From positions 1 to 21,866 of the IMG/VR virus record IMGVR_UViG_3300042876_000160: a DNA stretch of 21,866 nucleotides; one strand, 5' to 3'. Origin of the DNA: a virus. Below, in pieces: positions 5,576-11,590 of the stretch (positions within the stretch are counted from its first letter, which is position 1; every line of letters starts with the position of its first letter). Below the pieces are notes generated by a model. It saw only the letters and a program-made list of their open reading frames with translations. It searched no databases and was not told the origin of the DNA. Made by a program: the position numbers and the translations under genes.

Positions 5576-6214
5576 TTAAGTGCCAGCTTCTACTCTAACG
5601 TCCATAACTTGAAGGGAGTCGCCTGCTCCAGTATCCGCTACAACTCGGCATTGAGATTTAATAGGGATAAGGGCTTGGTCACCAGAGACTGCATTGTTGA
5701 TAGTTAAAGATACTACACGTACAGCGGAAGCTGTAAGGGTACCTGTACCGTCACTAGTAATATCGGTGATAATACCATCGTTCTGGACTGCAGTAAGTTG
5801 GAAAGAATCTGCATCTAAAACTTTAACGTAATAGATTTTGCTTGAGTCTAGTCCTACGGGTAAAGTTCCTGTAGTGTAAAGGGCTACTGCTTGACCTGAG
5901 GTGAACCCGTGACCTACGCTTGTAAAAATGTCGGTAGCTGAGTCAGGAGTAAGAGTCCTATTTGTGGAAGCTGAGATAGCGGAAGAGTCTTTAACGTTTC
6001 TCCAGATACCCGCTCCAGAGCTGTCCTGCAAACTAACGGTAACACCCGTAGCTGCTACGGACCGTCCAACAAGGACATCTACTCTAAGCAGATCTCGGCT
6101 ATTCATAGCGATACCGAAAGAGGGTACAGAGATTACAGCGTCGGATTGACTAGCTGGAATAACCACGCCTCTAGCTGACATTTTACTTGCGCTTTGATTA
6201 ATTTGTTGGGACAT
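5576..6214 (-). CDS. Virion surface/fibre-like protein with FCCH-like beta domain
   Basis: A 212-residue protein rich in Ser, Thr, Val, Ala and Gly with alternating hydrophobic residues, typical of an all-beta phage structural protein. Around residues 95-142 the stretch HGFTSGQAVALYTTGTLPVG, followed by YYVKVLDADSFQLTA, closely resembles the FCCH-like repeat seen in phage structural and fibre proteins. It may decorate the capsid or form a short fibre; I cannot choose. ATG 6214 has an AAGGAAG ribosome site and overlaps the end of the preceding gene by 17 bases. Its place between small and large terminase is unusual, since those two are normally adjacent. Only one domain copy is seen. Confidence 0.65.
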   Translation of the reverse strand: MSQQINQSASKMSARGVVIPASQSDAVISVPSFGIAMNSRDLLRVDVLVGRSVAATGVTVSLQDSSGAGIWRNVKDSSAISASTNRTLTPDSATDIFTSVGHGFTSGQAVALYTTGTLPVGLDSSKIYYVKVLDADSFQLTAVQNDGIITDITSDGTGTLTASAVRVVSLTINNAVSGDQALIPIKSQCRVVADTGAGDSLQVMDVRVEAGT

Positions 6215-6701
6215 CTTCTTTATCTTCCTTTTTTAAATTAGGGTCGTTTAAATACTTTACTCCTACCTTTTCCAGGTAAGCTTTAAGTTCATCTTTACTC
6301 ATTTTATTAATAAAGTCATCAGCAAACTTCTTCTGTTCCCATTTATTCGGCATTCTACCCGCAACCTCTACCATAAGTTTAGCCATATTAACACGGGCTG
6401 ATGGATTAGCCTTAGGGTCTGAAAGGATCTCCTCGGCAGTATCTAGGGCTAAGTGGGCTAGGTATTCGACCCGCTGCCGGAACTCATCCTTGTTAAGAAA
6501 CCATTCACGAAAACCCGGTAAGCCCCACCAAGCCTTTAACCGGGACTCCCCTGTAAGGGTCTGGGCTAGGGACAGGGTGATAGGTTGAGTACCCATATCC
6601 GCGTATAAGGCCCAGAACGCCGCTTTAATGCGCCGCTGCTCGGGGGAAGGGAGGAATACCACCTGATCTAATAAATCGTTTAATTTGTTAATTGAGTGCA
6701 T
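6198..6701 (-). CDS. Probable terminase small subunit
   Basis: This 167-residue, mostly helical protein lies upstream of large terminase, where the DNA-recognising small terminase normally sits. Residues ~15-60 could form a helix-turn-helix type DNA-binding unit (LPSPEQRRIKAAFWALYADM, then SRLKAWWGLPGFREWF). The middle, with NPSARVNMAKLMVEVAGRMP, resembles the oligomerisation helices of phage small terminases, and the tail is charged. Its ATG follows the stop of the winged-helix gene with a single base between, and no strong ribosome site is seen, so coupled translation is likely. The call is from helical pattern and gene order, without a decisive motif. Confidence 0.62.
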   Translation of the reverse strand: MHSINKLNDLLDQVVFLPSPEQRRIKAAFWALYADMGTQPITLSLAQTLTGESRLKAWWGLPGFREWFLNKDEFRQRVEYLAHLALDTAEEILSDPKANPSARVNMAKLMVEVAGRMPNKWEQKKFADDFINKMSKDELKAYLEKVGVKYLNDPNLKKEDKEDVPTN

Positions 6702-6702
6702 T

Positions 6703-6969
6703 TTATTTAATATAGTTCTTTAATGGTTTAACTGATAGGACCCAAGCTGAGCCTTCTGCCTTCTCTAAATTAATTAAACCTATCTGATTCAGGTAGATTA
6801 GGTAGTTCTTTAAACGTAAAGCTTTGACTTTTAAAGCTTTTGCGCAGGTACTGATATCAATCACTGCCTTATTCGAGTTCCATATAACACCCGGCAAGTC
6901 ACTATTCAGTAAGGATACTAGTACTTTATAAGGTAAAGCTTTATTGAATTCAATCATTATTTCAGTCAT
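6703..6969 (-). CDS. Small winged-helix-like protein, first gene of the head operon
   Basis: An 88-residue protein if started at ATG 6969. The core from FNKALPYKVLVSLLNSDLPG to a segment ending LNQIGLINLEK has the helix-helix-helix-beta pattern of a winged-helix DNA-binding domain, with a probable recognition helix at STCAKALKVKALRLKNYL. It could regulate the divergent promoters nearby or help packaging; neither is shown. The start is uncertain. A TTG at 7005 lies inside the -35 box and cannot be used by the predicted message. ATG 6969 falls at the predicted transcription start, and an alternative ATG at 6957 (giving 84 residues) lies just after it. No clear ribosome site precedes either ATG. 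Confidence 0.62.
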   Translation of the reverse strand: MTEIMIEFNKALPYKVLVSLLNSDLPGVIWNSNKAVIDISTCAKALKVKALRLKNYLIYLNQIGLINLEKAEGSAWVLSVKPLKNYIK

Positions 6970-6976
6970 ATAAGCC

Positions 6977-7005
6977 AGGATACATGAATGTCCTTGGGAT
7001 GTCAA
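6977..7005 (-). promoter_or_regulatory. Leftward promoter of the head operon
   Basis: On the minus strand a perfect TTGACA (7005-7000), a 17-base spacer and TATCCT (6982-6977, 4 of 6 consensus bases) form a sigma70-type promoter. Transcription should start about 7 bases after the -10 box, at or next to the ATG at 6969. The message would therefore have almost no leader. It is the only clear promoter between the control region and the leftward genes. Confidence 0.65.
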
Positions 7006-7046
7006 TAGGTAATTTAACAGAAGATTAGTACCTTACAAAAAAGTTG

Positions 7047-7075
7047 TTGCATTTTGATTAAATTTATGATATAAA
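7047..7075 (+). promoter_or_regulatory. Rightward promoter of the candidate non-coding RNA
   Basis: TTGCAT (7047-7052), a 17-base spacer and TATAAA (7070-7075) form a plausible promoter with a good -10 and a modest -35. Transcription would start near 7082. No gene follows for about 800 bases, but a terminator occurs about 270 bases on. Confidence 0.45.
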
Positions 7076-7082
7076 GTATATA

Positions 7083-7351
7083 TCTTTTCTTTTCTTTGCC
7101 TAGCTAAGGCTTAAGCTATAGCTAGGGGTTGGTTTTCTTTTAAGTGAAGTAGTAGTTATCAGGTAAGTGTACTTCAACGCACTGTGCTTACCTGGTTTTA
7201 GGTCAAGGTATAGTATAGTATTAATCTATAAGGCTTTTTCTTAGCTTGTTGCATAAGAGAAGAAGTAAAGCAATAACCAACCTAAGCTTAGCCTAGCTTA
7301 ATGTATTACGGCGCAGATTTTATTAAGGGGACTTTACCGTCTCTTTTTTTT
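7083..7351 (+). ncRNA. Candidate structured non-coding RNA of about 270 nt
   Basis: This stretch is bounded by a promoter and a rho-independent terminator, has no coding frame, and is full of complementary segments. A long-range closing helix pairs 7126-7134 with 7275-7283 (GGGTTGGTT with AACCAACCT, one G-U). A second pairs 7111-7118 (TTAAGCTA) with 7294-7301 (TAGCTTAA). Inside are a 12-bp hairpin at 7160-7194 (arms CAGGTAAG/CTTACCTG plus wobble pairs) and a 9-bp hairpin at 7235-7262. An alternative local pairing of CCTAGCTA (7099-7106) with TAGCTAGG (7119-7126) competes with the long-range helix, so two folds may exist. The structure is read by eye. Function is unknown, and it matches no phage RNA family that I recognise. 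Confidence 0.5.
7325..7351 (+). terminator. Rho-independent terminator
   Basis: AAGGGGAC (7325-7332) pairs with GTCTCTTT (7339-7346) across a 6-base loop, giving 8 bp with two G-U pairs, and a run of eight T follows to 7351. It reads rightward and would end transcripts from the promoter at 7047 before the origin-like repeats. Confidence 0.65.
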
Positions 7352-7425
7352 ATGTTTAAGCGAGGGCAACTCCCTTGTTTGCCCCCTAAGGATTTGACGT
7401 AAGTTCTTGACTTATAAGACCTCCC

Positions 7426-7503
7426 ATTTTTTTTAGGTTCGTTCTGTCATTATTTTAATATATGACTTCACAGACTACCTAAACTGGGAATTTTTTTTAG
7501 GTT
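7426..7503. repeat. Pair of 14-base T-tract direct repeats
   Basis: The 14-mer ATTTTTTTTAGGTT occurs at 7426-7439 and again at 7490-7503, 64 bases apart. The second copy is also the right arm of an inverted repeat, ACCTAAA (7477-7483) with TTTAGGT (7496-7502). Between them lies GTCAT/ATGAC, a small inverted repeat. Such T-tracts suggest bent DNA or repeated binding sites; the function is not known. Confidence 0.5.
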
Positions 7504-7644
7504 AAATTCTCTTCCTCCCTCCTAATTTAAACCCACTTGTACCCTTCTTATTCCTCTTCCCTCGTGTGTGCGTAGCCTGTGTGGGGATGTGTGTGGGGGG
7601 GTGACTTTCCCTTTCCCTGTGTATACTTGACCGACCGGCCAACC

Positions 7645-7679
7645 TGTGTGTAACCCATTGTAGTGTGGATAACCCATTG
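7645..7679. repeat. Two DnaA-box-like 16-bp iterons, candidate replication origin
   Basis: The units TGTGTGTAACCCATTG (7645-7660) and TGTGGATAACCCATTG (7664-7679) are direct repeats with two mismatches and a 19-base period. The second contains TGTGGATAA, the exact complement of the bacterial DnaA box TTATCCACA. The first differs from it at two positions. GT- and G-rich DNA lies to the left, and a strong hairpin followed by AT-rich DNA (7760-7850) to the right, an arrangement common in origins. Gene direction diverges at this region. Whether replication starts here is inference. Confidence 0.45.
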
Positions 7680-7715
7680 ATTTCGTGTAAGCTCTAAAAT
7701 TCGATTTAATGCGTT

Positions 7716-7757
7716 GTCCCGATCAGGGGATACCTAGCCTATCCCTTGAATCGGGGT
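7716..7757. other. Long imperfect hairpin
   Basis: CAGGGGATA (7724-7732) pairs with TATCCCTTG (7740-7748) around a 7-base loop CCTAGCC. After one bulged A the stem continues with CCCGAT (7718-7723) against ATCGGG (7750-7755) and two wobble pairs, about 17 bp in all. No T-tract follows on either strand, so it is not a standard terminator. It could be a single-strand initiation structure, an operator or a leader element. Confidence 0.6.
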
Positions 7758-7825
7758 CGATTAGATCTAATATCTATATAAATATCCGATTGAGCGTAAA
7801 AAAATAATTCAAATAAAGCTAAAGT

Positions 7826-7853
7826 TTTCCAAAAAACAGCCGATAAATATAAT
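7826..7853 (+). promoter_or_regulatory. Early rightward promoter
   Basis: TTTCCA (7826-7831), a 16-base spacer and a perfect TATAAT (7848-7853) precede the first rightward gene. The start of transcription should fall near 7860, about 37 bases before the ATG. The spacer contains AGCCGATAA, which recurs at 8483-8491 in front of a second gene group. Confidence 0.6.
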
Positions 7854-7879
7854 ATAAGCTGTAACCGTTCCAGCTTATA
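7853..7879. promoter_or_regulatory. Operator-like 27-bp near-palindrome over the early promoter start
   Basis: TATAAGCTG (7853-7861) and CAGCTTATA (7871-7879) are perfect 9-bp inverted halves. The centre AAC-C-GTT extends the symmetry, leaving one mismatched position per half. It begins at the last base of the -10 box and covers the predicted transcription start, exactly where a repressor would block initiation. As RNA it would instead form a 5' hairpin. Repressor identity is unknown; the winged-helix protein at 6703-6969 is one candidate. Confidence 0.55.
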
Positions 7880-7896
7880 AAAATAAAGGATCAAAT

Positions 7897-8100
7897 ATGA
7901 ATAAGCAAATAACAATTTTAGTCGACACTTTACGGGTTGAAGGGTACGAAATTAAGTCAATCTATAATCTTGATGCTTTTGTTCATTTAACCTTATCTCA
8001 CGGTAACACTGTGCTTACAATTAAGGAGCCCAGTCTAGACGTGTTAGCGCAGATTAATGAATTAAGGCCTCAATATAACTTAATCTATCGAGTAGCCTAA
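7897..8100 (+). CDS. Small early protein, unrecognised
   Basis: A 67-residue protein, first gene of the rightward arm. It looks like a compact alpha/beta fold: strands at ITILVDTL, YEIKSIYN and VHLTLSHGNTVLTIK, then a helix at SLDVLAQINELR. No motif is recognised and there is no membrane segment. ATG 7897 has an AAAGGA ribosome site 7 bases upstream. It sits directly behind the early promoter and operator-like palindrome, so it is probably among the first products of infection; a host-takeover or regulatory role would fit but is only inference. Confidence 0.7.
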   Translation: MNKQITILVDTLRVEGYEIKSIYNLDAFVHLTLSHGNTVLTIKEPSLDVLAQINELRPQYNLIYRVA

Positions 8101-8503: not shown

Positions 8504-8573
8504 TAATGATTCATTGAGTATAGTAGATGAGATCCAGTGCAATAACGTATTTATAAATCATAAGGGGGCACAA

Positions 8574-9002
8574 ATGTATAATAAACAGTCAATTAGTCAA
8601 TCACTGCCTGAATTCGTTATCCTATCAGCAGAGCGCGGTTCCAACAACCCTATGCAGAATAGCGTGTTTACAGATGAATTGGAATCAATCCTTAAGTCTA
8701 ATGGGTACGCTTATAAAAAGGTTGAGGGGCGCTATAAAAATCAAAAAGAGGAATCTTTTGTGGTGATTTTAAATAGATCGGACAGTCTAACACAATTAAT
8801 TCGATTAGCGAGCAAATTTGACCAAGAATCAATTCTTCTCGTGAATAGCGATAGGAAGGCAGAATTAATCTATACAGCGGATCCATTGGATGGGTATGTT
8901 CTAGGTGGGACATTTCGCCTTGTAGATGGTGATTTAATTCAGCGTACTGACCTATCTTATACTTACGACCCGAATAGCGGGTATTATTATTCGGTATATT
9001 AA
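8574..9002 (+). CDS. Early protein of 142 residues, possibly DUF3293-like
   Basis: The start is ATG 8574, because a GGGGG ribosome site lies 5 bases upstream; the longer frame from a TTG at 8514 has none. The segment FVILSAERGSNNPMQNSVFT, then EGRYKNQKEESFVVIL and SILLVNSDRKAELIY, has the strand-helix-strand layout of phage and bacterial proteins related to DUF3293, including the GRY...EESF motif. That family has no settled function. The C-terminus is Tyr-rich (TYDPNSGYYYSVY). The assignment is by recall of the motif only. The gene opens a new small early group after a possible promoter at 8475. Confidence 0.6.
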   Translation: MYNKQSISQSLPEFVILSAERGSNNPMQNSVFTDELESILKSNGYAYKKVEGRYKNQKEESFVVILNRSDSLTQLIRLASKFDQESILLVNSDRKAELIYTADPLDGYVLGGTFRLVDGDLIQRTDLSYTYDPNSGYYYSVY

Positions 9003-11032: not shown

Positions 11033-11590
11033 ATGCTAAAATATAAATTAACAAATAATAAAAATGCGCAAGGTTTTTATCAGATTCAAGCTTTACGGGA
11101 TATTCCTAAGTTTTACGTAAAAGCTGGAGATAGGGGGGGATTTATTGAACAGGAAAGCAATCTAAGCCATAATGGCGATGCTTGGGTTTTTGATAATGCT
11201 GTGGTTTATGGGGAGGCTTGGGTTTATGGGGATGCTAAGGTTTTTGATAATGCTGTGGTTTATGGTGATGCTAGGGTTTGTGGTAATGCTGGGATTTATG
11301 GGGAGGCTTGGGTTTATGATAATGCTGTGGTTTATGGGGATGCTAGGGTTTATGGGGATGCTAAGGTTTGTGGGGATGCTGTAATTGATTCTAGTTCTGA
11401 TATTATTTATATTCAAATGAAACCTTACAATATTACATTCACGCCACAGAACATTATTATAGGTTGTCAAAATAAAACATATAAAGAATGGATGAAAGTT
11501 AAGCATAAAGATACTGAATTAGATTTAAAAACATTTAATAAATACAAGAAAATTCTTCAATTCTTTAACTTAGAAGGAAAAACAAAATGA
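11033..11590 (+). CDS. Left-handed beta-helix (hexapeptide-repeat) phage protein
   Basis: 185 residues from ATG 11033, chosen because AGGGAAG lies close upstream. The N-terminus (LTNNKNAQGFYQIQALRDI, then KAGDRGGFIEQESNLSHNGD) is the typical head of a phage family that leads into repeats of the form G-[DNE]-A-x-V-[YF]. Twelve such hexapeptides run from residue 48 to 119 and predict a left-handed beta-helix of about four turns, as in hexapeptide transferases. The C-terminal ~65 residues are mixed and basic. No catalytic His of an acetyltransferase is evident, so an enzymatic role is doubtful. The family is widespread in phages with unknown function. Its stop overlaps the next start. Confidence 0.75.
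   Translation: MLKYKLTNNKNAQGFYQIQALRDIPKFYVKAGDRGGFIEQESNLSHNGDAWVFDNAVVYGEAWVYGDAKVFDNAVVYGDARVCGNAGIYGEAWVYDNAVVYGDARVYGDAKVCGDAVIDSSSDIIYIQMKPYNITFTPQNIIIGCQNKTYKEWMKVKHKDTELDLKTFNKYKKILQFFNLEGKTK
11174..11389 (+). repeat. Twelve tandem 18-bp units encoding hexapeptides
   Basis: The coding DNA repeats with an 18-base period, with units such as GTTTATGGGGATGCTAGG and GATAATGCTGTGGTTTAT. Several units are nearly identical at the DNA level, including at third positions (for example the DNAVVYG unit occurs three times). This indicates recent duplication and makes the array prone to gain or loss of units. Confidence 0.8.

Follow-up and report, generated by a model that had tools for sequence, protein, structure and literature searches.

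A candidate noncoding leader or small RNA in the divergent gap between the TerS and early modules of a phage clade

We analysed a 21,866-bp stretch of viral DNA (IMG/VR virus record IMGVR_UViG_3300042876_000160, positions 1–21,866; the whole stretch is hereafter called the window), in which a divergent gap, 7006–7896, holds a candidate RNA locus. This region is best explained as a divergent control region between a leftward winged-helix/TerS module and a rightward early module. The anatomy of the candidate and the conservation of its position among related phages are seen directly, and the sequence at this position has turned over completely. We regard the locus as a credible but unproven noncoding RNA of the phage, a leader or a small RNA of about 270 nt, predicted to be transcribed rightward from 7082 to 7351 (+ strand, both ends predicted). 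That a discrete transcript is made here, whatever its role, appears fairly probable.

Gene organization around the divergent gap

The left part of the window carries leftward genes for capsid-like, portal, TerL, head/baseplate-like (5576–6214), TerS (6198–6701) and small winged-helix-like (6703–7005) proteins. TerL and portal gave profile matches, TerS was assigned by position and clade similarity only, and the winged-helix protein had no Pfam match. Rightward genes start at 7897 with two small genes, followed by a gene (8514–9002) whose product matches the S-adenosylmethionine (SAM) lyase family PF23780 (E 5.7e-20); amidase, ClpP-like, AAA ATPase, Cas4-like, PolA and RuvC-like genes lie further right. 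The SAM-cleaving enzyme of phages such as T3 is an early anti-restriction protein. A tRNA/tmRNA search returned none.

A near-identical contig (L003/L169, 99.7%) has zero differences from the window over 7047–7360. Elsewhere, this contig appears to be about 108 bp shorter at an 18/54-bp tandem array (window 11172–11381) within a beta-solenoid-like gene, consistent with two 54-bp units.

Promoters and terminator in the window

The sequence-only reading had described about 270 bases without a reading frame, enclosed by a promoter and a rho-independent terminator. No ORF of at least 40 aa overlaps 7006–7500 on either strand, which bears out the first point. The terminator also stood: an intrinsic terminator lies at 7325–7351 (+ strand), with an 8-pair stem (7325–7346, −7.3 kcal/mol) followed by U8. 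Its stem is modest and its U-tract strong, and shuffled sequence would yield just 0.14 terminators of this kind per 900 bp. The promoter, in contrast, did not rise above chance. The candidate rightward promoter TTGCAT-17-TATAAA (7047–7075, + strand) matches at 8 of 12 positions (3/6 and 5/6), under the threshold of our promoter scan. Two sites of this grade occur in 7006–7110 against a shuffle mean of 1.4, 70% of shuffles have at least one, and the best rightward promoter near the winged-helix gene is itself an 8/12 match (p 0.95). The site nevertheless occupies the slot in which relatives carry 10–12/12 promoters. Thus, of the marks of an intrinsically terminated noncoding transcript, the hairpin and U-tract are present in the window, whereas a better-than-chance promoter is seen in the relatives and not in the window. 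Because the window promoter is too weak by itself, the case for the window rests on the terminator, the core fold and the position.

On the other side of the slot, the leftward promoter TTGACA-17-TATCCT (6977–7005, − strand, 10/12) belongs to the winged-helix/TerS operon. A noncoding stretch of 546 bp separates the terminator from the first early gene, and in it the promoter scan found a separate promoter-like site (7826–7853); a 13-bp inverted repeat (7853–7879) overlaps its −10 element. The early genes therefore need not depend on read-through from the candidate unit.

Predicted fold of the candidate RNA

The minimum free energy of 7082–7351 is −73.8 kcal/mol (z −1.90), and 13 of 300 shuffled sequences fold as well; for 7080–7351, 8 of 200 shuffles are as good. 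Folding of the core, 7099–7303, is stronger, with z-scores of −3.24 (3/300 shuffles) and, separately, −3.47 (0/200), to be read with the fact that the core limits were picked from the stems themselves. Against shuffled controls the structure proposed from the sequence is thus strong in its core and weak as a whole unit.

The individual elements fared unevenly. The domain at 7126–7283 is closed by the proposed long-range helix 7126–7134/7275–7283, made of eight Watson–Crick pairs and one G–U, and most of its pairs are predicted with P >0.9. The second proposed helix, 7111–7118/7294–7301, is an exact 8-bp complement, yet its predicted P is only about 0.12. A hairpin at 7160–7194 can be drawn with 8 bp but has P=0, ousted by hairpins at 7145–7176 and 7181–7214. 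The hairpin proposed at 7235–7262 is weak (P 0.05–0.38), and the predicted fold has a weak hairpin at 7233–7271. The competing local hairpin (7099–7126, pairing 7099–7106 with 7119–7126) does exist, at P about 0.3–0.6. It competes with helix 7111–7118/7294–7301, the 3′ strand of which forms a hairpin at 7283–7300 in the alternative fold. When forced, the fold with the local hairpin has −73.4 kcal/mol and that with the second long-range helix −73.0 kcal/mol, about 0.4 apart. Two near-isoenergetic folds are accordingly possible on paper, but the switch that had been read from them amounts to an energy coincidence in one sequence.

The excess folding was not confined to the strand of the predicted transcript, as the core is folded equally well when read from its reverse strand (z −3.41). 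Such strand symmetry is expected from palindromic DNA and weighs against an RNA claim. It fits a DNA-level control array, in which the repeats and palindromes would serve the divergent promoters or an origin as operators or iterons, bound perhaps by the winged-helix protein, with RNA folding as a by-product. We consider this rival serious, though on balance somewhat unlikely; the data do not tell an RNA role from an operator/iteron role.

Repeats and other DNA elements

The excess of short repeats over shuffled sequence expected of an operator or iteron array was indeed found. Across the relatives' slots, direct 7-mer repeats number 284 against 97 expected and inverted ones 283 against 124 expected, and the repeats differ from phage to phage. 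One relative, L011, carries tandem AGCTTAGCTATA units adjoining the promoter. The constant presence of the winged-helix gene beside the slot and a nearby DnaA-box match likewise suit DNA-level control. On the other hand, such an array leaves the terminators of the window and of the relatives L175, L125 and L111 (below) unexplained, and the winged-helix protein is only a putative binder. The DnaA-box match lies in a 16-nt direct repeat at window 7645–7679, one copy of which matches the box perfectly (TGTGGATAA).

A separate conserved noncoding element, CCCCAGTGTGG, was observed upstream of TerS in L170, L181, L185, L198, L199, L203, L201, L195 and L207, in most loci with CCCACTT about 40 bp past it. 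Its exact core, CCACACTGGGG, occurs in 8 of 32 gaps. The window version, at 7484–7575, keeps AAACCCACTTG and is degenerate in its first half. This element could be an origin or a packaging site.

The slot in related phages

To collect relatives, TerL was first aligned with distant homologues from phages, and this alignment led to the clade. The clade TerL alignment then gave more than 50 loci with 31–48% TerL identity, plus three in MAG contigs, and a TerS alignment gave 53 loci (TerS identity up to 55%), most of which include sequence upstream of TerS. We used tblastn and blastp to check synteny, the winged-helix pair of the window and L011 being weak by itself (E 0.018), and alignment of 22 winged-helix proteins established their gene as the constant neighbour of the slot. 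Near-complete records of the clade are 57–60 kb long. In L012 (6768–9278), a long in-frame insertion, which matches Hint/intein profiles weakly, splits TerL at the Walker A region after about residue 60; similar TerL gaps occur in L168, L115, L117, L132, L133 and L140. In ten clade virus records, no integrase was found and no T7-type RNA polymerase matched, the polymerase control being silent everywhere too.

The common layout consists of the winged-helix gene and TerS leftward, then a rightward promoter, a repeat-rich, ORF-poor stretch and the early genes; in many relatives the ORF-poor divergent gap beside the winged-helix gene measures very roughly 0.8–1.2 kb. We scored promoters lying no more than 250 bp from that gene. 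Of 21 loci, 6 have a rightward promoter matching at 11/12 positions or better, where 0.06 were expected, and 9 have one at 10/12 or better (1.27 expected); leftward promoters of at least 10/12 are present in 12 of 21 loci (1.65 expected). The 200 nt immediately 3′ of the rightward promoter are more stably folded than their shuffled versions (mean z −1.71, 12 loci), whereas control stretches 400 nt further on show no excess folding (mean z −0.23, 10 loci).

The cleanest counterpart, L175, has the promoter TTGACT-17-TAGACT, an ORF-poor unit of about 230 nt and a terminator with a 16-bp stem (−23.7 kcal/mol) followed by a T-run. Rightward terminators also lie in the slots of L125 (=L195; −14.7 kcal/mol, T8) and of L111 (=L193; −17.4 kcal/mol), in the latter 3′ of a second promoter. 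The terminator scan, which recognised none in L192 and L171 (both with 12/12 promoters), also gives false matches within genes, so that the count of terminators by itself is only suggestive. This positional evidence as a whole speaks for a genuine rightward transcription unit occupying the slot across the clade. The discrete structured RNA of the sequence-only reading is thus plausible, with its support coming from the relatives and not from the window itself.

Other short units were noted in these loci. Upstream of TerS in L193 (815–974, window orientation), a short stretch poor in ORFs separates the second rightward promoter (11/12) from a strong terminator. Short promoter–terminator units pointing in the opposite direction, toward the winged-helix gene, are present in L010 (=L199; about 782–960, + strand; terminator about −19 to −20 kcal/mol), L116 and L011 (about 362–560, + strand; bidirectional hairpin).

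The slot sequence itself cannot be aligned between relatives. Searches of the whole window with the covariance models of Rfam 15, including 6S RNA and phage pRNA, found nothing at E ≤ 5, and no homologue of the region was found by blastn against 50,697 phage records or by blastn and nhmmer across related intergenic regions. A covariance model of the core, searched in 60 loci, likewise identified no homologue; it recovered the window itself, a piece of the window's reverse strand and, at the expected position but with E 0.39, L123. Scans for close relatives by TerL, portal and PolA returned the near-identical contig or nothing. The sole alignable copy is identical over 7047–7360 and so offers no compensatory base changes. 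Among the relatives no common RNA sequence motif emerged, only phage-specific repeats, and a common long-range closing helix was rejected as not beyond shuffles.

Interpretation of the candidate transcript

Among the roles considered we rank first, as a tentative reading, a cis-acting 5′ leader or attenuator for early transcription. The rightward promoter would make a short, ORF-free, folded transcript, ended about 270 nt on by the intrinsic terminator. By default, RNA polymerase would halt near 7346–7351; nascent structure or a factor might permit read-through and hence more early transcription, beyond that from the separate site at 7826. The ORF-free stretch, a core that beats shuffles, a U8 terminator rare by chance, and the promoters, folding and terminators of the relatives speak for a leader, and L192 and L171, with strong promoters and no recognised terminator, would read on toward the early genes in a leader-like manner. 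Against it stand the chance-level window promoter, the strand-symmetric fold, the lack of a homologue, the promoter-like site at 7826–7853 that could serve the early genes separately, and the 546-bp noncoding gap.

A trans-acting regulatory small RNA, working by base-pairing or protein binding, is an unlikely alternative to such a leader. The self-contained unit with its U8 tail and pyrimidine-rich 5′ end would suit it, and phage small RNAs of 50–550 nt are known (PMC12197685). However, a search for pairing with the translation starts of 39 candidate window genes found none above chance (best z −1.7), in a test whose duplex tool ignores internal structure and which covered phage genes only.

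We think it quite improbable that the transcript is a primer or activator RNA of a neighbouring origin. The GC skew of the window turns near 7000–8000, the DnaA-box match and repeats lie at 7645–7679, and the conserved noncoding element follows in the relatives; but the terminator would end the transcript about 300 bp short of the DnaA box, and the origin is itself putative. Equally improbable is the absence of any functional RNA, with chance complementarity in AT-rich DNA and a terminator serving other transcripts: the promoter at chance level, the whole-unit z of −1.9 and long-range stacks no longer than those of shuffles (within the first 200 nt, the longest uninterrupted one falls short of the shuffle average) agree with it, whereas a layout common to relatives well above shuffles and a core z of about −3.3 do not.

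A broader reading, which we consider rather doubtful, is that the clade has a noncoding-RNA gene at a constant place, between the divergent TerS/early promoters on its left and the conserved origin- or packaging-like element on its right, with the layout of promoter, self-complementary repeats and terminator retained while the sequence is completely replaced, and that this gene controls an early/late or replication decision. If the transcript is real, this phage group, known here from metagenomes alone, has a slot for a noncoding RNA, and such loci can be found by position even when neither sequence similarity nor covariation helps. The relatives collected above open the question to testing.

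Comparison with known systems

The phi29-type pRNA is a structured RNA near packaging genes that keeps its fold while its sequence changes. The candidate would resemble it in being a structured RNA near packaging genes; a phi29-type pRNA is nevertheless unlikely, given that the phage has a TerS/TerL pair and not a phi29-type packaging ATPase, and that Rfam gave no match.

The lambda 6S transcript is the terminated leader RNA of pR′. In lambdoid phages, transcription from pR′ passes through a short noncoding leader to a terminator, and read-through needs Q (PMC6266700). The candidate would share this succession of phage promoter, short noncoding leader and terminator. It differs in lying on the early side, beside the TerS operon, and in that the early genes come with a separate promoter-like site; no antiterminator gene was recognised in the phage. 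The putL and putR elements of HK022 are structured RNAs of about 70 nt with two stem-loops, which lie just 3′ of early promoters and influence RNA polymerase in cis (PMC9378689). The location at an early promoter fits, whereas the candidate, compared here by description, is about 270 nt long, multi-branched and closed by a terminator. Lambda OOP and PreS are discrete phage small RNAs, OOP being a 77-nt antisense RNA to cII located by the replication region (PMC12197685). The candidate would likewise be a short noncoding phage transcript; unlike OOP, it would have 270 nt, and it overlaps no gene. By analogy, and with no claim of membership, the candidate would work like terminated leaders, put elements or discrete small RNAs.
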